The translations under genes were made by a program, and so were the position numbers. 64,000 bases of DNA from an endosymbiont of unidentified scaly snail isolate Monju (GTDB lineage: Bacteria; Pseudomonadota; Gammaproteobacteria; Chromatiales; Chromatiaceae), in assembly GCF_000801295.1 (NCBI RefSeq), contig NZ_AP012978.1:1922001-1986000 (forward strand). Direction: 5' to 3'. Shown here piece by piece: positions 9,249-34,491 of this stretch (within the stretch, counting starts at the first letter, position 1; each line of letters begins with the position of its first letter). The notes beneath the pieces were generated by a model. It was given only the letters and a program-made list of their open reading frames with translations, searched no databases and was not told the DNA's origin.

Positions 9249-10793
9249 TCAGGCCGCGTCTTCGGTCGAATCTTCCTGTTCGTCGTCGTCACCGGTGTCC
9301 TGACCGGTCAGGACGATGGCCTCGGAGACCAGTTGGTGCACGCTGACGATCATGTCCATGCCCATGCCGTAATAGGGCAGCACCTTGGTGAACTGCGACT
9401 TGCAGATAGCGCAGATCGCCGCCATGTTGGTCACGCCGTGTTCCTCGATGACGTTCTTCAACGCCTCCATCCGCGGCTTGGCGCCCTTGACGCGCAGTTC
9501 CGTCAGGTCGTCGGTCAGGAGACCGCCGCCGCCACCGCAGCAGAAGGTCTTTTCGTGGATGGTATCGGGGTCCATGTCCACGAAGTTGTTGCACACCGCC
9601 TTGATGACGTTGCGCGGGATGGTGAACTGCCCGCCCGGCTCGTCGCCCATGCGCGTGGCACGTGCCACGTTGCACGAATCGTGGAAGGTCACGACCATGT
9701 GGTCGTTGGCCGACTTGTCGATCTTGAGCGTGCCTTTCTGGATCTCGCCCCAGGTGAACTCCAGGATGTGCTGGGGCACCGGATATTTCGGGTCCAGGAA
9801 GTCGAACGGGCCGGCCAGGGTGTTCAGGAAGCTGTAGGCCACCCGCCAGGCATGACCGCACTCACCGAAGATGATGCGCTTCACACCCAGTTCCAGCGCG
9901 GCCTCGCGGATGCGCAGGGAAATGCGGCGCATGTTCTCGTACGAACCGATGAACATACCGAAGTTGGCCGCCTCCGACGCCTTGGAGCTGAGCGTCCAGG
10001 ACACGCCGGCCTCGTGGAACACCTTGCCGTAGCCGATCAGGCCGTCCACGTGCGGTTCGGCGAAGAAGTCCGCCGAGGGAGTGACCAGCAGGATCTCGGC
10101 ACCCTTCTGGTCCAACGGATACTTGACCTCCACGCCGGTATCGTCGAGCACGTCTTCCTCGAGCCCCTCGAGGGTGTCGGCCAGTGCCGGCTCGGGCAGG
10201 CCCAGATTGTTGCCGACCTTGAATACCTTGCCGATGATCTCGTTGCAGTACTTCTGGCCCAGGCCGATGCGATCCATGATCTCGCGCGCGGCCATGGAGA
10301 TCTCGGCGGTGTCGATGCCGTAGGGGCAGAACACCGAGCAGCGACGGCACTGCGAGCACTGGTGGAAGTAGCTGTACCAGTCCTCGAGCACTTCCTCGGT
10401 GAGATCGGTGGCACCGACCAGCTTGGGGAAGTACTTGCCGGCAAAGGTGAAGTAGCGGCGATAGACCTTGCGCAGAAGATCCTGGCGCGCCACCGGCATG
10501 TTCTTGGGATCCTGGGTACCGAGATAGTAGTGGCACTTGTCGGTGCAGGCGCCGCATTTCACGCAGGCGTCGAGGAACACCTGCAGCGAACGGTACTTGC
10601 CGAGCAGGTCGCCCATGTGCTCGATGGCCTTCTCCTGCCAGTCGTCGACCAGTTCGGCGGGATAGCCCAGGGGTTCCATGAACTCCGGGTTCTTCGCCAC
10701 GAACGGCTTGCTGTGCGCCATCGAGCCCGGCTGAATCGGCGGGATCTCGGGATACTCTTTCAGCTCCGGAATTTCAAATTCTGCTTTTGCCAT
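9249..10793 (-). CDS. dsrK: DsrK, HdrD-like iron-sulfur catalytic subunit
   Basis: A 514-residue cytoplasmic subunit of DsrMKJOP related to heterodisulfide reductase HdrD; its proposed substrate is the DsrC trisulfide/disulfide. Two [4Fe-4S] motifs lie near residues 77-170 (CVKCGACTDKCHYY and CSQCRRCSVFCP). The C-terminal half has cysteine-rich motifs for the catalytic cluster (FHDSCNVARA, FCCGGGGGLL, CAICKSQF). The tail is very acidic (TGDDDEQEDSTEDAA). It follows dsrM by 21 bases. Confidence 0.95.
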   Translation of the reverse strand: MAKAEFEIPELKEYPEIPPIQPGSMAHSKPFVAKNPEFMEPLGYPAELVDDWQEKAIEHMGDLLGKYRSLQVFLDACVKCGACTDKCHYYLGTQDPKNMPVARQDLLRKVYRRYFTFAGKYFPKLVGATDLTEEVLEDWYSYFHQCSQCRRCSVFCPYGIDTAEISMAAREIMDRIGLGQKYCNEIIGKVFKVGNNLGLPEPALADTLEGLEEDVLDDTGVEVKYPLDQKGAEILLVTPSADFFAEPHVDGLIGYGKVFHEAGVSWTLSSKASEAANFGMFIGSYENMRRISLRIREAALELGVKRIIFGECGHAWRVAYSFLNTLAGPFDFLDPKYPVPQHILEFTWGEIQKGTLKIDKSANDHMVVTFHDSCNVARATRMGDEPGGQFTIPRNVIKAVCNNFVDMDPDTIHEKTFCCGGGGGLLTDDLTELRVKGAKPRMEALKNVIEEHGVTNMAAICAICKSQFTKVLPYYGMGMDMIVSVHQLVSEAIVLTGQDTGDDDEQEDSTEDAA

Positions 10794-10814
10794 GCCAGCT
10801 AACCTTGCTCCGGA

Positions 10815-11555
10815 TTATTGTTCCAGCTTGCGCGCCCACTCGACGATGTGACGCTGCTCGCGGGGGTTGTCCACCTGGTTGCGGGTCGGGCTGAAGAACA
10901 CGCCCAGCGCATGCAACAGCTTGCTGATGGGGAAGATGATCATCAGCAGCGCGACCAGCCCAAGGTGCACGATCATCAGCGGATCGCTCGGCAGGTTGGG
11001 CATGGTCTCGAAATTGAAGGTCATCAGGTGACGGAAGAAGGACTTCACCGCCACCACGTCGGTATGCGCGACGAAAGTGGTCAGCGCACCGCTGGTGCCG
11101 ATGCCCAGCAGCAGGAACAGCATCAGGTAGTCAGAAGGCGCCGAGATGTAGCGCACGCGATCGACGAAGATGCGGCGACCGAGCAGGCCCAGCAGACCGA
11201 TGATCATGGCGAAGGCCAGGTATTTTTTGATGAGCGGACTGGTCCAGGACACGATACCCCACACCGGCTCCTGGAAGTAGCGCAGGTGCCGGAACAGCAC
11301 CGCGAACAGTGCCATGTGGAAGATCCAGCCGAACAGCCAGGTCCATTTGGCGCCCTTGAAAAGGCTTTCGAAAAACACCACTTCGCGGAACATGCGCAGC
11401 ACCACGCCACCGGTGGTGGTCGGTGCGGGCGTCGTGGGAATCTTCAGCGGCGCCGGGGTCTTCCAGTAGAGACGTATGCGACGCGCCAACCCTACCACCA
11501 GCAACAGCGTGGCGGCGTAGAACAATGCTGCAAATGCGACCGTCAGAAACGACAT
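10815..11555 (-). CDS. dsrM: DsrM, NarI-like membrane cytochrome b subunit
   Basis: A 246-residue membrane protein of the respiratory nitrate reductase gamma-subunit fold with about six hydrophobic segments, among them residues 3-24 and 72-90. Histidines in membrane segments (WIFHMALFAVLFRHLRY and IVHLGLVAL) are candidate haem b ligands. It anchors DsrK and exchanges electrons with the quinone pool. It begins 73 bases after dsrC, with a strong GC hairpin in the gap. Confidence 0.93.
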   Translation of the reverse strand: MSFLTVAFAALFYAATLLLVVGLARRIRLYWKTPAPLKIPTTPAPTTTGGVVLRMFREVVFFESLFKGAKWTWLFGWIFHMALFAVLFRHLRYFQEPVWGIVSWTSPLIKKYLAFAMIIGLLGLLGRRIFVDRVRYISAPSDYLMLFLLLGIGTSGALTTFVAHTDVVAVKSFFRHLMTFNFETMPNLPSDPLMIVHLGLVALLMIIFPISKLLHALGVFFSPTRNQVDNPREQRHIVEWARKLEQ

Positions 11556-11589
11556 GTTTCCGAAAACCTCTTGAATAGGGTTGCAGGTC

Positions 11590-11611
11590 CGGGGGGCGCG
11601 AGCGCCCCCCG
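11590..11611. other. GC-rich stem-loop between dsrC and dsrM
   Basis: A near-perfect palindrome with a 9-10-bp stem of CGGGGGGCGC against its complement and almost no loop. On the minus strand it is followed by GACCTGCA rather than a T run, so it is not a classical terminator. Placed just after dsrC, it would protect the upstream message or mark a processing point. Confidence 0.6.
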
Positions 11612-11628
11612 TTTGTCACCGGATGCGA

Positions 11629-11961
11629 TCAGACGCAACCGGTCGGCTTCGGCAGACCAGCGTAGCGGCAGGCCTGCTTGCCGGGACCGTAGGGGAACAG
11701 ACCGTACAGGTACTTGGAGTTGCCCTTGTCCTTGCCCAGCTTCTTGCCGACGGCCTTGGTCAGCACGCGCACGGCGGGAGCGATCTGGTACTCCTCGTAG
11801 TACTCGCGCAGGAAGTTGATGATGTCCCAGTGCTCGTCGGTCAGCTCCAGGTCGTCTTCCTTGGCCATGGCCTCGGCGACGGCCGGCTCCCATTCGTTGA
11901 TGTTTGCCAGGTAACCCTCTTCGTCGGTCTCGAAGACCTTACCATTTGCTTCGATAGGCAT
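11629..11961 (-). CDS. dsrC: DsrC, sulfur-carrier protein
   Basis: A 110-residue DsrC/TusE-family protein that carries sulfane sulfur to DsrAB and leaves as the trisulfide. Both functional cysteines of the flexible C-terminal arm are present: Cys98 (KQACRYAG) and penultimate Cys109 (PTGCV), ten residues apart in between, as in true DsrC. The conserved core (WEPAVAEAMA, HWDIINFLREYY) is intact. It follows dsrH by 47 bases and precedes a stem-loop. Confidence 0.97.
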   Translation of the reverse strand: MPIEANGKVFETDEEGYLANINEWEPAVAEAMAKEDDLELTDEHWDIINFLREYYEEYQIAPAVRVLTKAVGKKLGKDKGNSKYLYGLFPYGPGKQACRYAGLPKPTGCV

Positions 11962-12008
11962 TTCGCTATCTCCTGTTACAGTTCAATGTTTGACAATCAG
12001 ACCAGGCC

Positions 12009-12314
12009 TCAGAGCCAGGCCTGGACCTTGTCGTGGTTCACGACGAGATCAACAAAACCGGCGTAATCGACCAGTTCGACGCCGTCGATCAGGCGATCTT
12101 CGGCAATTCCACGCGCCTTCAGGTCGGCCCGGAGTGCGTAGAACTTCCGGCCGGCGGCATTGGCCACCAGGTCGGAAACGGCGGTGCCCGCCATGGCACC
12201 ATAGACACCGTCCTCGATCAGCAGGATGGACGCGCCCTCGCTCGAAAAGCGGATGGCGTCCTCCAGCGAGTTCTTCTCGAACGGTGATTTGCTCACGGTA
12301 TACAGATCGGCCAT
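12009..12314 (-). CDS. dsrH: DsrH, TusB-like subunit of the DsrEFH sulfur relay, cysteine-free
   Basis: A 101-residue DsrH/TusB-family protein, part of the hexameric DsrE2F2H2 sulfurtransferase. It opens MADLYTVSKSPFEKNSLEDAIRF. As I recall the Allochromatium protein, a cysteine (Cys20) lies in the stretch after NSLE; here that stretch reads DAIRFSSEG and the protein contains no cysteine at all. DsrE alone would then hold the relay cysteine. The gene follows dsrF by 9 bases. Confidence 0.92.
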   Translation of the reverse strand: MADLYTVSKSPFEKNSLEDAIRFSSEGASILLIEDGVYGAMAGTAVSDLVANAAGRKFYALRADLKARGIAEDRLIDGVELVDYAGFVDLVVNHDKVQAWL

Positions 12315-12323
12315 TTCGCCACC

Positions 12324-12731
12324 TCAGAAGCTGAATACGACGTCGGATTCCTCGAGCTTCTTCGCAATCTCTTCGGAATCCAGGATCTCGACGATGTTGT
12401 CCACCTCTTCCTCGGTCTCCCAGTCTTCCCAGGCGACTTCGATGAGGTCGTCCTGGGTCAAGCCGCGAGCCTCGAGCGAGGCCTTGTCGACATACATGTG
12501 CCGTACGCCATAGTCGCCAAGGGTGCGATAGGTGGGGGTGAAGTTCTTCATGTCGGATTCGGAGGTGTCACTCCCCTTCACCAGCTGAGAAACCCCGTCG
12601 TCCACGAACATCAGGCTGACCTCCTGGTCGAAGGCCGCGCCGATCAGCACGACTTCCAGCGACTCCCAGGCATAGATGGTGCCGTAGGGAGCACGACGAT
12701 TCAGATACATGAACTTCTTGACATCGGACAT
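12324..12731 (-). CDS. dsrF: DsrF, TusC-like subunit of the DsrEFH complex
   Basis: A 135-residue DsrE/F-fold protein with the TusC-type start MSDVKKFMYLNRRAPYGT. Known DsrF proteins lack a catalytic cysteine and serve a structural role; this one also has none. A strongly acidic C-terminal part (WEDWETEEEVDNIVEILDSEE) is visible. It lies 13 bases after dsrE and 9 bases before dsrH. Confidence 0.93.
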   Translation of the reverse strand: MSDVKKFMYLNRRAPYGTIYAWESLEVVLIGAAFDQEVSLMFVDDGVSQLVKGSDTSESDMKNFTPTYRTLGDYGVRHMYVDKASLEARGLTQDDLIEVAWEDWETEEEVDNIVEILDSEEIAKKLEESDVVFSF

Positions 12732-12744
12732 CGTTGTTCTCCCC

Positions 12745-13137
12745 TCAGTCGCCGAACACGACCAGACGGTCGCACTGGATGGCTGCCTCGATCAGCTGCC
12801 CGAGGCCGGAGATGCGAAACTTCGGCGCGATGTTGGTCGCGTCCTTGCCGTTGCGCTCGGCCTCGCCGTCGTCCACGATGCCGCGGCGCTGGGCCGCGGC
12901 AACGCAGAGGACGAGATCCAGGTCGTATTTCTCTGCCAGTTCCACCCAGCGGTTGACGATGTTGCGATCGTCCTGGGGCGGCGTGGTCAGGCGGGTCCCG
13001 TTCAGCACGCCGTCGTGATAGAAGAACACGCGGAACACCTCGTGGCCCTTCTCCAGCGCAGCCTTGGTGAAGTGGTACGCCGAGTCGGTAGCCTGATGCT
13101 GATAGGGCCCCTCGTTTACCTGTACTGCCAGTTTCAT
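12745..13137 (-). CDS. dsrE: DsrE, TusD-like sulfurtransferase subunit with active-site Cys78
   Basis: A 130-residue subunit of the cytoplasmic DsrEFH complex that receives sulfane sulfur and hands it to DsrC. The active-site cysteine falls at residue 78 in DLVLCVAAAQRRG, the same number as the essential cysteine of the Allochromatium protein. The middle loop (FYHDGVLNGTRL) is typical of TusD/DsrE. It starts 26 bases after dsrB. Confidence 0.96.
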   Translation of the reverse strand: MKLAVQVNEGPYQHQATDSAYHFTKAALEKGHEVFRVFFYHDGVLNGTRLTTPPQDDRNIVNRWVELAEKYDLDLVLCVAAAQRRGIVDDGEAERNGKDATNIAPKFRISGLGQLIEAAIQCDRLVVFGD

Positions 13138-13163
13138 GACTTGACCTCGTCGTTACAGGCCGC

Positions 13164-14237
13164 TCAGAAGCGGATGTAGGCGGAAGAGTTCAGGCTCTTG
13201 CGCGAACCACGCCAGTTGTCGATGTGGTACTTGGTGAACGGCAGCTCGACCTCTTCGAAGAAGCGCGGCCAGCCGATACGCTCGATCCACTCGTTGATAC
13301 GCTCCCAGTCCTTTGCGCCTTCATTGTAGGCCTTGAGGATACGCTTGACGATCGCGGTCGCCTCGGGCCAGCGCGGCGGGTTGTTGGGGATACCGGAAGC
13401 CACCAGCTTCTGGAAGGTGGGCTTGCCACGGGCGTTGGAGTGGTTGCCGCCAACCCAGATGGACAGCTTGGTGTGCTCGGCGTCGTTGATCTGCATCGGC
13501 GGGCAGGGCGGGAAGCAGGCGCCGCAGCAGATGCACTTCTTCTCGTCCACTTCCAGCGAGGGCTTGCCGTTCACCATGGCCGGACGGATGGCGGCCACCG
13601 GGCAGCGGGCCACGACGGAAGGACGTTCGCAGACGTTGGCCACCAAGTCGTGGTTGATCTTCGGCGGCTTGGTGTGCTGCACGTTGATGGCGATATCGCC
13701 CTGGCCGCCGCAGTTGATCTGGCAGCAGGAGGTGGTGATGTGCACGCGGTTGGGCATGTCGGCGTTGCGGAACTCGTCGATGAGTTCGTCCATCATCGCC
13801 TTCACCACGCCGGAGGCGTCGGTGCCCGGGATGTCACAGTGCAGCCAGCCCTGGGTGTGCGACAGGGTGGTCACCGAGTTCTGGGTACCACCAACGATGA
13901 AGCCGGCTTCTTCGAGCGCATTGATCAGCGGCTCGACACGTTCCTCCTCGGTCACGAAGAACTCGGGGTTGGAACGCAGGGTAAAGCGGATGTAGCCGTC
14001 GGAGTACTCGTCGGCAATGTCGCACAGCTTGCGCAGGCTGAACAGGTCGAGGATACGCTGGGTACCGGCCTTCACGGTCCACAGCTTGTCACCGTTCTTG
14101 GCGACGTGCAGCAGCACGCCCGGACGCGGGTGCTCGTGATACGCCCACATGCCGAAGTTGCGGCGCATGGTCGGGTGCATGTACTGGAACGGATCGGGAC
14201 AACCGGACTCGATCGGTTCACGCATTTCTTTAGCCAT
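13164..14237 (-). CDS. dsrB: DsrB, reverse dissimilatory sulfite reductase beta subunit
   Basis: A 357-residue siroheme sulfite reductase subunit that, with DsrA, oxidises DsrC-bound sulfur to sulfite in the cytoplasm. The ferredoxin-like insertion is clear (CICCGACFPPCP, residues 235-245), and the sulfite reductase half carries the cluster region around TSCCQINCGG (171-176) and further cysteines at about 203 and 212. Length is normal. It lies 93 bases after dsrA, with a hairpin in the gap. Confidence 0.97.
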   Translation of the reverse strand: MAKEMREPIESGCPDPFQYMHPTMRRNFGMWAYHEHPRPGVLLHVAKNGDKLWTVKAGTQRILDLFSLRKLCDIADEYSDGYIRFTLRSNPEFFVTEEERVEPLINALEEAGFIVGGTQNSVTTLSHTQGWLHCDIPGTDASGVVKAMMDELIDEFRNADMPNRVHITTSCCQINCGGQGDIAINVQHTKPPKINHDLVANVCERPSVVARCPVAAIRPAMVNGKPSLEVDEKKCICCGACFPPCPPMQINDAEHTKLSIWVGGNHSNARGKPTFQKLVASGIPNNPPRWPEATAIVKRILKAYNEGAKDWERINEWIERIGWPRFFEEVELPFTKYHIDNWRGSRKSLNSSAYIRF

Positions 14238-14275
14238 TTTTACCTCCAGAAATCGGGTAAATGCCTCCCCGAATT

Positions 14276-14299
14276 CCCCGCCGGAAACAGTTGGCGGGG
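14276..14299. other. Intercistronic hairpin between dsrA and dsrB
   Basis: A 7-bp perfect stem (CCCCGCC / GGCGGGG) with a ten-base loop lies in the dsrA-dsrB gap. No T run follows on the minus strand, so it is more likely an mRNA stability or processing element than a terminator. Confidence 0.45.
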
Positions 14300-14330
14300 C
14301 CAGGGAAAGTCATATTCGGTTTGTGAACGA

Positions 14331-15581
14331 TTAAGAAGCTTCGGCCTGACGGTCGAACCACTTGATGGCCTCCTCGTCCCAACCGTCCATGCGCACGTAG
14401 GAGCACTCGCGGGGGTGATTGACCATGTTCGGATCAACCTCGACGCCGATGCCCTCGAGGAAGTTCACCAGGCCGATACGCTCGATCATCTCGCCGCAGC
14501 GCTCGTGCTCCAGGGCATTCTCGGCCCAGAAGTCGATGATCTCTTCGGCCAGCTCGACCAGGGACTCCCAGTCTTCCTCGGTTTCAAGCTTCTTGAACGG
14601 CACCACCACGGTACCCATCAGGTCACCGATCTTGAGGGTGCGCTTGCCGCCGATCAGGATGGTGACGCCCTTGTCGTCACCCACACCCAGCGCCTTGGGC
14701 ATGACGTTCAGGCAGTGCATGCAGCGCACACAGTCCTTGTTGTTCACAGTGATGGTGTCGTCATCGTTCAGCGAAATGGCATTGGTCGGACAACGGGTGA
14801 TGACGTTGTCAATGACGTACTGACGACCCTTCTTCTCGACGAATGCCTTGACCTCGTCCTGGTTGACCTTCATGTCGTCGCGCCAGGTACCGATCACGGC
14901 GAAGTCAGCACGCTCGATAGCGTTCTGGCAGTCGTTCGGGCAGCCCGAGATCTTGAATTTGAACTTGTAGGGGAGCGCCGGACGGTGCACGTCATCGGTG
15001 AAGTTGTTCACCAGCAGACGGTGCGCCTTCTGCTCGTTGGTGCAGGACATTTCGCAACGGGCGGCGCCCACGCAGGACATGGCGGTGCGCACGCAGGGGC
15101 CGGCACCACCGAGGTCCCAACCGTAGTCGTTGATCTCGTCGAAGAAGTGCTGATACTGGTCGGAGTCGGCGCCGATGAACATGATGTTACCGGTCTGGCC
15201 GTGGAAGGTGATCAGACCCGAACCGTACTTCTCCCAGCTGTCGGCCAGCTGGCGCAGCATGGCGGTGCTGTAGTGGTTGCCCGCCGGCGGCTGCACGCGC
15301 AGCGTATGGAATTCCTTGGACTCGGGGAAGGCGTGACCGACTTCGGAGAAACGCGGGATGATGCCGCCACCGTAGCCGTACACGGAGATGGTGCCACCCT
15401 TCCAGTAGCCCTTGCGGGTCTCGTAGGAGTGCTCGAGCTGACCCAGCAGCGAGTTGGCCACCTTGTTGATCTTTTCGTTCGGGTGCTCGTCACGCAGGCG
15501 CTTGATGCCGCTGATGAAGCTCGGCCACGGACCTTCTTCGAGCTGGTCCAGCATGGGTGTGGGATACTTGTCGATCGCCAT
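14331..15581 (-). CDS. dsrA: DsrA, reverse dissimilatory sulfite reductase alpha subunit
   Basis: A 416-residue subunit; the start at 15581 (MAIDKYPTPMLDQLEEGPWP) follows an AGGAGAG ribosome site, and a longer in-frame start has no support. The siroheme/[4Fe-4S] cysteines are all present: Cys170 and Cys176 (CVGAARC) and Cys214 and Cys218 (GCPNDC). A ferredoxin domain is inserted with Cys264, 284, 287 and 290 (CVRCMHC). First gene of the operon; its promoter must lie in the 15582-15964 divergent region. Confidence 0.98.
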   Translation of the reverse strand: MAIDKYPTPMLDQLEEGPWPSFISGIKRLRDEHPNEKINKVANSLLGQLEHSYETRKGYWKGGTISVYGYGGGIIPRFSEVGHAFPESKEFHTLRVQPPAGNHYSTAMLRQLADSWEKYGSGLITFHGQTGNIMFIGADSDQYQHFFDEINDYGWDLGGAGPCVRTAMSCVGAARCEMSCTNEQKAHRLLVNNFTDDVHRPALPYKFKFKISGCPNDCQNAIERADFAVIGTWRDDMKVNQDEVKAFVEKKGRQYVIDNVITRCPTNAISLNDDDTITVNNKDCVRCMHCLNVMPKALGVGDDKGVTILIGGKRTLKIGDLMGTVVVPFKKLETEEDWESLVELAEEIIDFWAENALEHERCGEMIERIGLVNFLEGIGVEVDPNMVNHPRECSYVRMDGWDEEAIKWFDRQAEAS

Positions 15582-15964
15582 GTCGTTATCTCTCCTGACT
15601 AATCGGTTTTGACTTGAATCCGCTCTCGCGTGGTCGAATCCGGCCACACAAAAAGTGCTTCGGTGATCCGTGACGGAATCGCGCCGCAGACGCAAACCCC
15701 ATCAATAGCCGCTAATATAGTCGAGTGCCACGCCCCCCAGAACCACACTAAGGAGGGAGGAGGTCAGCCCCAACCTATCCCTTTGGGGATAGACTGGCGC
15801 CACCCTGTACCGAAGGACTGGCCAAGTGACTGAAAATCAGGAAAACTCTCCCTTGGACAGTATTTCAGCGTATACCGATACAGCGAATTGCGGGCGATAC
15901 TAGGCCTAATTCCCACACTCCGTCAACAGGTGTCGGTTACAGAAGACGATCCGGGAGCCACTCA
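15582..15964. promoter_or_regulatory. Divergent control region between dsrA and the dioxygenase cluster
   Basis: This 383-base region holds no gene. On the minus strand, towards dsrA, two sigma70-like candidates are TTGACG (15926-15921) with TAGTAT 18 bases on, and TATATT at 15719-15714 with a weak TTCTGG upstream. On the plus strand, TTGGAC (15853-15858) is 18 bases before GATACA (15877-15882), a candidate for the dioxygenase cluster. An inverted repeat lies between them. None is strong enough to be certain. Confidence 0.4.
15775..15792. promoter_or_regulatory. Inverted repeat, candidate operator upstream of dsrA
   Basis: CTATCCC and GGGATAG form a perfect 7-bp dyad around a TTTG spacer. 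It lies in the divergent intergenic region about 195 bases upstream of dsrA. It could bind a dimeric regulator or form a hairpin in the dsrA leader; no regulator gene is in the window. Confidence 0.4.
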
Positions 15965-16861
15965 ATGAACACCAGTGCCAGTCCGTTTTCCCTGCACGAC
16001 GACCGGACTTACCGGGAATGGCGCGCCCGCAAGCTCGCCGAACCACCGCACCCACCGGTGGTCGAGATCGACGACCCGGCCGCCCCTTCGACATCCGATC
16101 TGGCGACCCTCGCCGACCACTGCGAGCGCCACAACTTTGCCCTCTTCCGCTTCTGCGAGCCGCCGGCCGACCCGCAACCGGCCCTGCGGCAGCTCGGCCT
16201 GCATTTCGGACTGAACGACCTGGATGCCAATCTCTGCGCCGAGGACAGTGGAGTGACCGAGATCACGGTCAAGGACACCGGTACCGACAATCGCTACATC
16301 CCCTACACCGATCACCCCATCGGCTGGCATACCGACGGCTACTACAACCCCATGCACCAGCAGATCCACGGCATGCTGCTCTATTGCCACCGCCCGGCGA
16401 TGGAGGGCGGCGTCAACGGCCTGCTGGACCACGAGATCGCCTATATCCGCCTGCGCGACCAAAACCCGGAATGGATCAGGGCATTGATGGCTCCGGATGC
16501 CTTTACCATTCCTCCGAACATCGAGGGCGGCGTGGAGATCCGTCCGGCGACGGTGGGGCCAGTGTTTACCGTGTCGCCCGACGGCAGACATCTGCACATG
16601 CGCTACTCGGCCCGGTCGCGCAATGTGGAATGGAAGGACGATACCGCCACGCGCGAGGCCGCTGCGGCGCTGCTGGAACTGTTCGCCAGCGACGACCCTT
16701 TCCTGCTCGAACGCCGACTGGCCGCCGGCGAGGGCGTGATCAGCAACAACATCCTGCACCGTCGCACCGGTTTCAACGATTCACCCGACCCCGCCCGCAA
16801 GCGCGTGTACTTCCGCGCGCGCTACCATGACCGAGTACGCTACATTCGCGACACACAATAA
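15965..16861 (+). CDS. TauD/TfdA-family Fe(II)/2-oxoglutarate dioxygenase
   Basis: A 298-residue protein of the taurine dioxygenase superfamily. The iron-binding HxD is in GWHTDGYY and the distal His in NILHRRTGF, followed by Arg residues for 2-oxoglutarate (PARKRVYFRARY). It is the first gene of a plus-strand cluster leading to the Cas6-like gene and rspA, divergent from dsrA. TauD enzymes release sulfite from sulfonates, which would fit the location, but the substrate cannot be read from the sequence. Confidence 0.82.
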   Translation: MNTSASPFSLHDDRTYREWRARKLAEPPHPPVVEIDDPAAPSTSDLATLADHCERHNFALFRFCEPPADPQPALRQLGLHFGLNDLDANLCAEDSGVTEITVKDTGTDNRYIPYTDHPIGWHTDGYYNPMHQQIHGMLLYCHRPAMEGGVNGLLDHEIAYIRLRDQNPEWIRALMAPDAFTIPPNIEGGVEIRPATVGPVFTVSPDGRHLHMRYSARSRNVEWKDDTATREAAAALLELFASDDPFLLERRLAAGEGVISNNILHRRTGFNDSPDPARKRVYFRARYHDRVRYIRDTQ

Positions 16862-16875
16862 CAAAGGAGCCCGCC

Positions 16876-17064
16876 ATGCTGTATCTCAGCCAGGTCATGA
16901 TCAGCAACCCCGAGCTGGAGAGCTTCGACGACCTCAAGCTGGTCATCAAGGAACTCGCTGCCCAAGGCGAGATGTTCCTGCGCTTCGACGTGAAACCTAC
17001 CTACCCCGATACCCCACCCGATTGGGAAGATCAGCTGGAGGCGACCTTCAGCAGTCGCTACTGA
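16876..17064 (+). CDS. Small hypothetical protein, 62 aa
   Basis: Starts 14 bases after the dioxygenase with a good AAGGAG ribosome site and ends 12 bases before the next gene, so it is part of the cluster. The sequence (MLYLSQVMISNPELESFDDL...) is acidic and soluble without cysteines or membrane segments. I do not recognise a family. Confidence 0.65.
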   Translation: MLYLSQVMISNPELESFDDLKLVIKELAAQGEMFLRFDVKPTYPDTPPDWEDQLEATFSSRY

Positions 17065-17076
17065 GGACCTATTTAA

Positions 17077-17793
17077 ATGGTAGATTATCTCGACCCCAAC
17101 CAGCTCGAAGACACAGCCGCCGCCTCACTGCGCAAGCAGCTCGGACAGCATGCCGAGCTGGAAGGCCGCCTGGTGGAACTGCGCCAGCAACTCGAGCGCC
17201 TGCCCGAACATGCCCCGGCCAGCGAACGCGCGCGCCTGCAACTGGAGATGGCACGCGCCCTGCAGATCCTCGAGCGCGGCACCGAGGCCTGGCCGCTGGG
17301 TCACACCGCCTTCGGCATCTTCGCCCAGGTCCGCGACTGGGAAAACGCCGCCGATGCCTGCGACATCCTCTATCAGACCGGCGAGCCCGACGCCCTGGTG
17401 GCGCTGGGCCACGGCATCTGGATCGGCGTGACCTTCCCCATCGACCCCGAGATCACGGTACACCTGCTCAGCCACGTGGTGGACGACACCCCGGACGACT
17501 CTGACGGTGCCGCGGTAGCGGCGGCCACCGCCTGCTTCATCACCGACATCCGCGCCGAGGAAGGCCCCGACAAGGAACGCATCGCCTTCTTCTCGCAACA
17601 GCTGCTGGGCCGGGTGGCGCGACGTCATAGCCAGGTCGAGACCCAGCAGCAGTTCGAGGCGTGGATCGAGCGCCTGGAACTGAACGACCCCGACAAGTTC
17701 CTGGTGCGCCTGCGCAACGTGGTGGACGTACTGGTACAGGACCAGTGGTGGGTCGACCGCGAGGCCATACAGGCCGAGATCCCCGCCGACTGA
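17077..17793 (+). CDS. Hypothetical protein, 238 aa, between dioxygenase and Cas6-like gene
   Basis: An acidic, mainly helical soluble protein. Residues 12-75 look like a coiled-coil or helical hairpin rich in Leu, Glu and Arg (LEGRLVELRQQLERL). The middle part (WPLGHTAFGIFAQVRDWENAADACDILYQTGEP) resembles a helical repeat. No catalytic motif, signal or membrane segment is visible. It lies 12 bases after the 62-aa gene and 15 bases before the Cas6-like gene, so the four are likely one operon. I do not recognise the family. Confidence 0.7.
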   Translation: MVDYLDPNQLEDTAAASLRKQLGQHAELEGRLVELRQQLERLPEHAPASERARLQLEMARALQILERGTEAWPLGHTAFGIFAQVRDWENAADACDILYQTGEPDALVALGHGIWIGVTFPIDPEITVHLLSHVVDDTPDDSDGAAVAAATACFITDIRAEEGPDKERIAFFSQQLLGRVARRHSQVETQQQFEAWIERLELNDPDKFLVRLRNVVDVLVQDQWWVDREAIQAEIPAD

Positions 17794-17808: not shown

Positions 17809-18507
17809 ATGTTCTGGGAAGACGACGACACCCCGCAGGAGTTCCAGGTCCCCGACGACGTGATCGACCTGGCCTTCAGCATCCAGTGCCGGGAACTGCC
17901 GGTCGATCACCTGTACGCACTGGGCAGCGCCCTGTGCGAGGCCGCCCCGGTGCTCACCGAGGACCCGCGCGTGGCCATCCACGAGATCCACCTGGCTGGC
18001 TCGCAGAACGGCTGGGAACGCCCTGACCCGCAAATGGGCCAGAAGCTGGTGCTCTCGCGACGCACCAAACTGCACATCCGGGCGCCCAAGGAACTGCGCG
18101 AGCGCATCGAGCAGGCGCTCGACGGGCTCACCATCGAGATCGATGGCCACCCGATGACCATCGGCAAGGCCCGGGTGAAGACACTCTCCAGGCAGGGCAC
18201 CCTGTTTGCCCGCCACATCGTGCTCGAGCCCGGTGAGGAAGACGACGAAAACACCTTTCTGATGCGCCTGGCAAAGCTCCTCCAGGCTCGCGGCATCCGC
18301 GTCAAGAAGGCCCTGTGTGACACCACGCAGAAGATCGCCACCCCCGAGGGACCGCTCACGACCCGCAGCCTGCTCCTGGCCGACCTCAGGCCCGAGGATT
18401 CAATTGCCCTGCAACAGGACGGGCTGGGCAGCCACCGGCACTTCGGCTGCGGCATCTTCCTGCCGCACAAGGGTATCGATCCAGTAAAAACGGCCGAAGA
18501 TGAATGA
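17809..18507 (+). CDS. Cas6/Cmx6-like RAMP-fold protein outside any CRISPR locus
   Basis: A 232-residue protein whose layout fits the Cas6 family of the MYXAN type (Cmx6). The N-terminal part has DVIDLAFSIQCRELPVDHLYALGSAL in pieces typical of that family (LPxDHxYAL with His34). The C-terminus has the glycine-rich loop DGLGSHRHFGCGIF (residues 204-217) after a SIALQQ helix. Cas6 enzymes cut CRISPR precursor RNA, but no repeat array or other cas gene is in the window, so the RNA target is unknown. The assignment is by motif memory and needs a profile search. Confidence 0.6.
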   Translation: MFWEDDDTPQEFQVPDDVIDLAFSIQCRELPVDHLYALGSALCEAAPVLTEDPRVAIHEIHLAGSQNGWERPDPQMGQKLVLSRRTKLHIRAPKELRERIEQALDGLTIEIDGHPMTIGKARVKTLSRQGTLFARHIVLEPGEEDDENTFLMRLAKLLQARGIRVKKALCDTTQKIATPEGPLTTRSLLLADLRPEDSIALQQDGLGSHRHFGCGIFLPHKGIDPVKTAEDE

Positions 18508-18609: not shown

Positions 18610-18960
18610 ATGTCGACAATCGAAGTCAACGGCAAGACCATCGAGCTGGACGAGCACGGCAATATGGTCGACCCCACCCTCTGGGACGAAGACGTGGCCC
18701 GCACCCTGGCCGATATGGACGAGAAGTTCATCGGCGAACTCACCCAGGAGCATTTCGACGTGCTCAACTACCTGCGTGACCAGTACTTCAACAACAACCA
18801 GAACCAGCCCATGGAGCGCCAGATCCTCAAGGACATGGGCAAGATCTGGGGCAAGAAGATCAGCAGCAAGGACATGTACAAGCTGTTTCCCTTCGCACCG
18901 TCCAAGCAGGGCAACCGCATCGCCGGCCTGCCCTACATCGCGCGCAAGGGCGGTTACTGA
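18610..18960 (+). CDS. rspA: RspA, DsrC-family protein lacking both functional cysteines
   Basis: A 116-residue DsrC/TusE-fold protein (WDEDVARTLADMDE, HFDVLNYLRDQYFNN). The C-terminal arm ends RIAGLPYIARKGGY, so neither arm cysteine of DsrC nor the single one of TusE is present, and there are no cysteines anywhere. This is the RspA class (regulatory sulfur-related protein), which cannot carry sulfur and is proposed to have a regulatory role. It has a GAAGAGGAG ribosome site and is followed by a strong terminator. Confidence 0.85.
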   Translation: MSTIEVNGKTIELDEHGNMVDPTLWDEDVARTLADMDEKFIGELTQEHFDVLNYLRDQYFNNNQNQPMERQILKDMGKIWGKKISSKDMYKLFPFAPSKQGNRIAGLPYIARKGGY

Positions 18961-19010: not shown

Positions 19011-19037
19011 TTGAGGGGCCGGTTCTCTCGATGGCCC

Positions 19038-19089
19038 GCAGGAACGACCTCCTCGCCACGAATCTTCGGCCCGGGGACGGGCCTCCTAC
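19038..19089. repeat. Dispersed hairpin repeat, locus 2 (two units)
   Basis: Two units face each other: a degenerate one at 19038-19062 and a full one at 19065-19089 (TTCG-GCCCG-GGGA-CGGGC-CTCCTAC). The second overlaps the end of piuC, so the TAG inside GTAGGAG is the piuC stop codon. The locus lies between convergent rspA and piuC. Confidence 0.85.
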
Positions 19090-19753
19090 AACTCGGCCCA
19101 CATGCGCAGCAGGTTGGCGTAGCTGCGATCCACCCGCTTTGCATGTTCGCTGTCGGGTTCGGTACGCAACAGGTGCTCGCGGGCCTGGTCCAGCTCGAAC
19201 AGCAGCTCGCGGCGGTCCGGCTCGCGCACGAAGCTCTGGATCCAGGTCAGCGCCACCAGACGTTCGCCGCGCGTGACGTCAGCCACGTGGTGAACGCTGC
19301 GCGAGGGATAGACTACCGCGCTGCCGGCAGCCAGCTTCACTTTCTGGTCTCCGAAGGGGGTGCGGATCACCAGCTCGCCGCCCTCGTAACTGTCGGGTTC
19401 GTTGAGAAAGATGGTCATGGACACGTCGGTACGGAACTTGCCGCCACCCATGATGGGATCGTCCACGTGATCACCGTAGCGCATCCCCGGCTGGTAGCGG
19501 GCAAAGATGAAATCGGCCAGCCGATGCGGCAGTACCGCGCTGCGGAAACGGGCGTTCTGCCCCACGCTGGCCATCACGATGCGGTTCAGGCGTGCTGGAT
19601 CTGCGGATCCTGTGCCAGCTCTTCGTTGGCCTTGACCCGGCGCGCAGCCATGCCGGCGGTGAGCCGCCCATCGACGAATTCGGCGCCTTCGAGGATCTCG
19701 CGGATCTTGTCGATCTGCGCGGGGTTGAGCAGTTCGGGGATCTCGATCAGCAC
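19086..19753 (-). CDS. piuC: PiuC-type Fe(II)-dependent prolyl-hydroxylase-like dioxygenase; one frame break
   Basis: PKHD-type hydroxylases of this family are usually near iron-siderophore uptake genes. The GTG start at 19753 follows a GGGAGAA site (VLIEIPELLNPAQIDKI). The frame breaks at the GG at 19589-19590; adding one base joins QDPQIQHA to LNRIVMASVGQNARF and gives about 222 residues, close to the usual 226. The iron HxD is in YGDHVDDP, the distal His in SRSVHHVADVTRGER with the 2-oxoglutarate Arg. The C-terminus ends inside a dispersed repeat. Confidence 0.85.
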
Positions 19754-22563: not shown

Positions 22564-23783
<1,220 letters not shown>

Positions 23784-26986: not shown

Positions 26987-27874
26987 ATGCCCCAGCTCTT
27001 CGTCAATCGGCTGACCATCCTCGACTTCTCTTATCTGCATGCCGAGCGCGGCCTGCTGGGCGAAAGCTGGCTGCTCGACGTGGTGCTCGAAGGCGGCCTC
27101 GACGAGCAAGGCATGGTGCTCGACTTCGCCGAGGTCAAGCGCTCCATCAAGGCGCTGGTGGACGAACGCTTCGACCACCGGCTTCTGCTGCCGATGCGCT
27201 ACGAGGGGCTGGTGGAGCAGCCACGACGCGGCATGTCGCACCTCAACTTCCACACCCGTGCGGGCTGGATGCTGCAACACAGCAGCCCCGAAGAAGCGAT
27301 TTGCCGCATCGATGCCGAAGCGATCACTCCCGATACCGTGGCCGAGGCCATCGTCGCCGCCCTGTTGCCCGGCATGCCGAGCAATGTCGAGTCGTTGAGC
27401 ATCCGCCTGCGCCCAGAAAGCATCGACGGCGCCTTCTACCACTACAGCCACGGCCTCAAGCACCACTGCGGCAACTGTCAACGCATCGCGCACGGACACC
27501 GTTCGCGGCTGATCATCGAGCGTGACGGCATACGCGCCCCCGAACTGGAGGCCGACTGGTGCGAACGCTGGCGCGACATCTACATCGCCACCCGCGCAGA
27601 TCTCTGCAAGGAAGAAGACGGCCAGTACCTGTTCGGCTATGAAAGCGCCCAGGGACGCTTCCTGCTGCGCATGCCGGTCGAGCGCTGCTACCTGGTCGAT
27701 ACCGACTCCACCGTCGAGAACCTCGCCGCCCACATCGCCGAGACACTGGCTGGCGAACACCACGGCCACCATTTCCGCGTGCACGCCTTCGAAGGTGTGG
27801 ACAAGGGGGCCATCGCCGAGGCGCGGCGTCCTCACCTCGAACGGTGCGGTTCGGGGACGGACCGCCTACGGTAG
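26987..27874 (+). CDS. Double-domain 6-pyruvoyl-tetrahydropterin synthase/QueD-like protein
   Basis: A 295-residue protein with two tandem PTPS/QueD-type halves. The second half has the Cys and His signature CGNCQRIAHGHRSRL (residues about 163-177), where the HGH supplies zinc ligands and the Cys can be catalytic; the end has HHFRVHAFEGVDKGAI. The first half keeps LDFAEVKRSIKALVDERFDHR but lacks clear zinc ligands, so it is probably structural. A preQ0/queuosine or pterin role fits tgt and queA in the window but is not proven. The last residues and the TAG stop come from a dispersed repeat. Confidence 0.82.
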   Translation: MPQLFVNRLTILDFSYLHAERGLLGESWLLDVVLEGGLDEQGMVLDFAEVKRSIKALVDERFDHRLLLPMRYEGLVEQPRRGMSHLNFHTRAGWMLQHSSPEEAICRIDAEAITPDTVAEAIVAALLPGMPSNVESLSIRLRPESIDGAFYHYSHGLKHHCGNCQRIAHGHRSRLIIERDGIRAPELEADWCERWRDIYIATRADLCKEEDGQYLFGYESAQGRFLLRMPVERCYLVDTDSTVENLAAHIAETLAGEHHGHHFRVHAFEGVDKGAIAEARRPHLERCGSGTDRLR

Positions 27875-27983
27875 GAGCGGCGTCCCCGTCGCGAACAACG
27901 TCCCCTCGCGAACGGTTCGGCCCGAGGACGAGCCTCCTACCGGTGGGAGCGGCGTCCCCGTCGCGAACGGCGTCCTCGCCGCC
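27848..27983. repeat. Dispersed hairpin repeat, locus 3 (four to five units)
   Basis: Units at 27848-27869, 27871-27896, 27916-27940 and 27942-27968 alternate in orientation, plus a half unit to 27983. The TAG in the unit at 27871 is the stop codon of the QueD-like gene. The locus fills the gap to convergent pyrC. Confidence 0.88.
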
Positions 27984-34357: not shown

Positions 34358-34464
34358 TTCGGCCCGGGGACCGACCTCCTACGTGTAGGAGCGGCGTTCC
34401 CGACGCGAACATTCGGCCCGGGGACGGGCCTCCCACCTGTGGGAGCGGCGTCCTCGCCGCGAAC
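34358..34464. repeat. Dispersed hairpin repeat, locus 5 (four units)
   Basis: Units at 34358-34382, 34385-34410, 34412-34436 and 34439-34464 alternate in orientation, forming two large inverted pairs. It is the most regular of the seven loci. It lies just downstream of the SQR-like gene, between it and the start of prfC. Confidence 0.92.
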
Positions 34465-34491
34465 GATCCGCACAGGGGGGTACGATGCCGC

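Follow-up and report, generated by a model that had tools for sequence, protein, structure and literature searches.

A Cas6-superfamily protein outside CRISPR, bound to the reverse dsr locus of gammaproteobacteria

The window, by which we mean the whole 64-kb stretch of DNA that was analysed, carries a short plus-strand gene cluster that diverges from the dsr operon. Its members are those that an earlier note on this DNA had described, a TauD-like gene, two unknown proteins (62 and 238 aa) and RspA around a suspected Cas6 gene, opposite dsrABEFHCMK:

9249..15581, minus strand: dsrABEFHCMK, part of the reverse dsr operon and divergent partner of the cluster
15965..16861, plus strand: TauD/TfdA-family 2-oxoglutarate dioxygenase-like protein (PF02668, E 6.3e-21)
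16876..17064, plus strand: S62, a conserved 62-aa protein with the motif DVKPPxxDTPxxWE
17077..17793, plus strand: U238, a 238-aa all-helical TPR-like protein (AF2 pLDDT 94.6)
17809..18507, plus strand: Cas6L, a CRISPR-independent Cas6-clade protein (232 aa, ATG start)
18610..18960, plus strand: RspA-type DsrC-family paralogue (PF04358, E 2.7e-28)

Cas6L is a clear member of the Cas6 superfamily. The open reading frame encodes both LPVDHLYAL and GLGSHRHFGCGIF, confirming the LPxDHxYAL motif and the glycine-rich C-terminal loop from which its kinship had originally been read. The sensitive profile search for Cas6/Cmx6 proposed as a check, in which the absence of any match would have spoken against the assignment, was positive, with 221 bits for the Pfam Cas6 family (PF09559, E 1.7e-65, cut-off 26.7) and 106.4 bits for TIGR02807 cas6_cmx6 (cut-off 98.85); the PADLOC Cas6 models also match, and TIGR02807 is matched by 59/59 aligned Cas6L members. 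The claim of homology is further borne out by the AlphaFold2 model, built with 59 relatives (pLDDT 90.9, pTM 0.86), which consists of two RRM-like domains and a C-terminal glycine-rich loop, the features by which the superfamily is recognised. The only solved relative that is clear by sequence is the Cas6 of a type I-B CRISPR transposon (8fcj), matched at E 1.4e-8 by the single Cas6L protein and at 6.8e-26 by the family profile; it is also the nearest among solved structures (Z 25.0; 199 residues aligned at rmsd 2.0), and the ranks that follow it in the structure search are taken by further Cas6 proteins. The 8fcj protein has only 23% identity to Cas6L and works within the transposon Cascade, whereas Pyrococcus furiosus Cas6 and Thermus Cse3/Cas6, which share the two RRM-like domains (Z about 10-17), are CRISPR-bound and about 10-14% identical.

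The usual gene order runs from dsrA to the divergent TauD-like gene, S62, U238, Cas6L and RspA; the TauD-like gene, often the first of the divergent cluster, and U238 are optional, with U238 found in about 60% of loci and S62 in 126/140. Among 369 gammaproteobacterial genomes, a Cas6L homologue is present in 118, essentially as a single copy, and dsrA, counting strong and partial matches, in 119. Both genes occur together in 111, that is, dsrA in 111/118 Cas6L carriers and Cas6L in 111/119 dsrA genomes (odds ratio 482, p about 7e-75), and where both lie on one contig Cas6L is upstream and divergent of dsrA in 82/84 genomes, at a spacing in this arrangement of 0.6-4.5 kb. These counts strongly support a conserved tie of Cas6L to dsr. 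Some exceptions to the pairing look like assembly breaks: in one genome (G123) the TauD-like and S62 genes stop at a contig edge, and in another (G127) the Cas6L cluster sits at a contig end. A scan of named genomes yielded 557 relatives, and the 80 that were kept include Allochromatium palmeri, Thiocapsa, Thiocystis, Marichromatium, Halochromatium and Cocleimonas. In a second genome set drawn from the phylum (249 genomes), Cas6L was present in 3/3 dsrA genomes of the same class and in 0/47 of other classes, where the pathway therefore works without it. Four reverse-dsr loci of other classes (L206-L209, L218-L221) have TauD-like and S62 genes adjoining dsrA, followed in three of the four by a CysG-like gene, and all four lack Cas6L, which seems to have been added in one lineage to a TauD-S62 arrangement of broader occurrence. 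A literature search outside subscription journals found no paper on Cas6 beside dsr or on this cluster.

No CRISPR-like array lies within the 64-kb window, as had been claimed, but a decayed type I-C CRISPR locus exists elsewhere in the genome (G000:C1, about 2,444,000-2,452,700), ~0.5 Mb from Cas6L. In this locus (L032, 4177-12719) cas8c is interrupted by an IS3 element, cas3 runs into a cas8c fragment, no intact cas5 is seen, cas7 carries an expanded glutamate-alanine repeat and just two repeats remain. Processing in type I-C systems is done by Cas5, and Cas6 is not used. An array near the cluster in relatives, which might have explained the presence of the gene, was sought in 140 Cas6L loci (2.2 Mb), and none of at least three CRISPR-like repeats was found there; two short tandem repeats were inspected and set aside, and the detector recovered a real array in a positive control (L252). 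Across the carriers, cas1 is present in 51/118 and absent from 67/118 (57%), eight of the latter being closed genomes, and the association of Cas6L with cas1 is weak (odds ratio 1.5, p 0.08). The neighbourhood, whose conservation with and without CRISPR had been put forward as a check, is dsr-linked in both settings. We hold with high confidence that Cas6L represents a CRISPR-independent, dsr-bound clade of Cas6 proteins.

Phylogeny and residue conservation bear on how this clade stands to its CRISPR relatives. In the tree, dsr-linked and CRISPR-linked proteins (35 and 8 rows) are split by one branch with support of 100/98, and Cas6L does not fall inside the CRISPR Cmx6 clade, of which the tree holds a small, mainly cyanobacterial sample. 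Type I-MYXAN Cas6/Cmx6 proteins (TIGR02807; for example those of cyanobacterial plasmids) share with Cas6L the fold, the profile, the DH motif, the arginines and the glycine-rich loop. Those checked, however, mostly adjoin cas3 or cmx8, whereas Cas6L has no CRISPR neighbours and is bound to dsr; at 25-30% identity to them, it forms a separate clade with invariant residues of its own. Common to Cas6L and CRISPR Cmx6 are D33, H34, L38, R91, L104, R135, Q202 and the glycine loop, and G205, G207, G213 and G215 are nearly invariant in the Cas6L alignment. Specific to the dsr group are W3, H58, N67-G68-W69 (of which G68 is shared), R71-P72, R85, E147, K167 and the C-terminal HKG, with W3, W69 and R85 among the invariant residues peculiar to it. 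Two histidines are candidates for the catalytic residue: H34 is retained in 98% of 60 sequences and H58, found in the dsr group only, in 93%; as a lead, the IHEI at H58 resembles by eye the LHEV at His46 of P. furiosus Cas6. The residues common to both groups suggest that Cas6L may have kept the ability to bind and cleave RNA, and the group-specific set suggests one conserved substrate or partner. With dN/dS of ~0.11-0.17 against close relatives, Cas6L is under purifying selection. Its distances track those of DsrA (r 0.57, against 0.22 for the best of 2000 permutations) and, after outlier removal, with those of DsrB (0.50; near zero with four faulty entries included). A search for Cas6L relatives in phages or viral contigs found none.

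Distribution, synteny and phylogeny show that a Cas6-superfamily protein has departed from CRISPR and been fixed in the reverse-dsr locus of gammaproteobacteria. Its fold and conserved core residues suggest that Cas6L would still bind and cut structured RNA, and we consider such an activity fairly probable. Given that it is a fixed dsr neighbour with or without CRISPR, Cas6L probably acts on a cellular RNA connected with sulfur metabolism; the likeliest substrate would be RNA of the sulfur-oxidation regulon, above all the long dsr mRNA. The conserved cluster suggests S62, RspA and U238 as putative partners or signal inputs. We lean slightly towards a single domestication of a CRISPR RNA-processing nuclease in gammaproteobacterial sulfur oxidisers, as a regulon RNA factor with S62, U238 and RspA as partners, and we judge the proposal as a whole, an ex-CRISPR Cas6L fixed at dsr that cuts regulon RNA and chiefly the dsr mRNA, to be evenly poised.

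An alternative, which we regard as unlikely though worth weighing, is that Cas6L is a non-cleaving binder of a specific RNA and serves, together with RspA and U238, as a translational or anti-terminator-type regulator of dsr. Such a role would suit the group-specific invariant residues, which point to one conserved partner, and the clustering with a DsrC-like protein, as well as the report that DsrC of A. vinosum binds DNA upstream of dsr (PMC5944118); the DH-motif histidine, shared with CRISPR Cas6 and kept so widely, counts against this reading.

If Cas6L does cut the dsr message, two intergenic hairpins are candidate sites:

11590..11611, minus strand: core CGGGGGGCGCTCGCGCCCCCCG of a hairpin between dsrC and dsrM in the dsr mRNA, candidate substrate
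14276..14299, minus strand: core of a hairpin between dsrA and dsrB in the dsr mRNA, candidate substrate

A cut at the base of either hairpin, the one that follows dsrC or the one separating dsrA from dsrB, would produce 3' ends closed by a stable hairpin and could thereby give the operon segments differing levels. In about 97% of 101 loci the dsrC-dsrM hairpin reaches -12 kcal/mol or below, and the dsrA-dsrB hairpin is present in about three quarters of loci; the gap between Cas6L and RspA folds little better than shuffles. A T tract seldom follows the dsr hairpins, and most are therefore not simple terminators. No common sequence was found among them, and the two hairpins of one genome have a slight excess of shared sequence (4.88 vs 4.59) that may reflect base-composition bias. 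The dsrC-dsrM hairpin was rejected as a mark specific to Cas6L, since it is also found in genomes that lack Cas6L (L172, L173, L175, L187) as well as at some dsr loci outside the class, so that its presence or absence gives no link to Cas6L. According to the passage of PMC3397948 that cites Grimm 2010, dsrEFH and dsrC transcripts of A. vinosum exceed those of dsrA. This difference is compatible with processing or stabilisation by segment, or with internal promoters. We put forward the dsr message, which the earlier note had named as an example, as the Cas6L substrate only tentatively.

S62 matched no known family. The profile matches of U238 are TPR-like alone; its C-terminal part gives weak, recurrent Cas11e/Cse2 matches in 13/53 members (best E 2.9e-4), and a relationship to Cas11/Cse2 gained no support from a profile comparison with a Cse2 alignment, which did no better than decoys. 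RspA ends in an invariant RKGGY that replaces the redox cysteines, with no C-terminal cysteine in an alignment of 52. That Cas6L acts on tRNA or another non-dsr RNA tied to sulfur relay, through relatives of DsrC/TusE and DsrEFH/TusBCD, would agree with its conserved neighbour being a TusE/DsrC-family protein, but RspA does not have the C-terminal cysteines that sulfur transfer requires, and we find this reading rather improbable.

A further conserved element lies between the divergent operons:

15776..15791, no strand assigned: conserved palindrome TATCCC-N4-GGGATA in the divergent promoter region

The window's genome holds a single exact copy of it. In most loci the consensus, TATCCC-NWWN-GGGATA, stands about 125-290 nt before dsrA; it is perfect in 52/112 loci and has at most two mismatches in 100/112, against 6/112 in a shuffled control. 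This conservation, and the position of the sole exact copy, would allow the palindrome to be the target of Cas6L as an RNA hairpin. We rejected it as an RNA substrate and consider such a role very improbable, since the site follows dsrA and not Cas6L, being found also upstream of second copies of dsrA and of dsrA genes remote from Cas6L, and since its mismatches look DNA-like, C.A being about as common as G.U. The palindrome is probably a dsr operator. A C-rich element lies about 17-22 nt downstream of it in the direction of dsrA. Several gammaproteobacteria (L178-L185) have a second dsrAB pair unaccompanied by the other genes of the operon, and in 5/8 of these an operator-like site stands upstream of the pair.

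The notion that Cas6L is an ordinary CRISPR Cas6 serving arrays in trans and near dsr by chance is barely credible, for although its score exceeds the curated TIGR02807 cut-off for Cas6/Cmx6 and a CRISPR locus exists elsewhere in the genome, it was rejected on account of the carriers without cas1, closed genomes among them, and by the decayed, two-repeat state and Cas5-processed type of that locus, and it sits ill with the separate clade and the near-perfect linkage to dsrA.

To our knowledge, Cas6 is known only as a CRISPR enzyme. If a locus of energy metabolism retains Cas6L for its own sake, this would be a clear example of a nuclease from defence redeployed on cellular RNA. The proposed reading, were it true, would give Cas6 a housekeeping role outside immunity and open the control of dsr transcript segments to direct testing, and the uncharacterised cluster occurs in genera that include model organisms, for example Allochromatium. 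The curated model names proteins of this type CRISPR Cas6, and hundreds of dsr loci are probably mislabelled as a result. On a Gloeobacter plasmid (L203, 1974-4546) a Cas6/Cmx6 gene adjoins PAPS-reductase-family and cupin genes, with no cas gene in the part shown, and is perhaps another non-CRISPR Cas6.

Two kinds of mobile or repeated sequence were also noted in the window. IS3-family transposase genes with an ALIL pseudoknot (RF01497) lie at 22564-23783, in an element closely similar to the one that interrupts cas8c in the type I-C locus. Dispersed REP-like repeats with the core GGAGCGGCG..CGCGAA occur at 27844-27969 and 34358-34465, and a related stretch is found near 19025-19095, after RspA.
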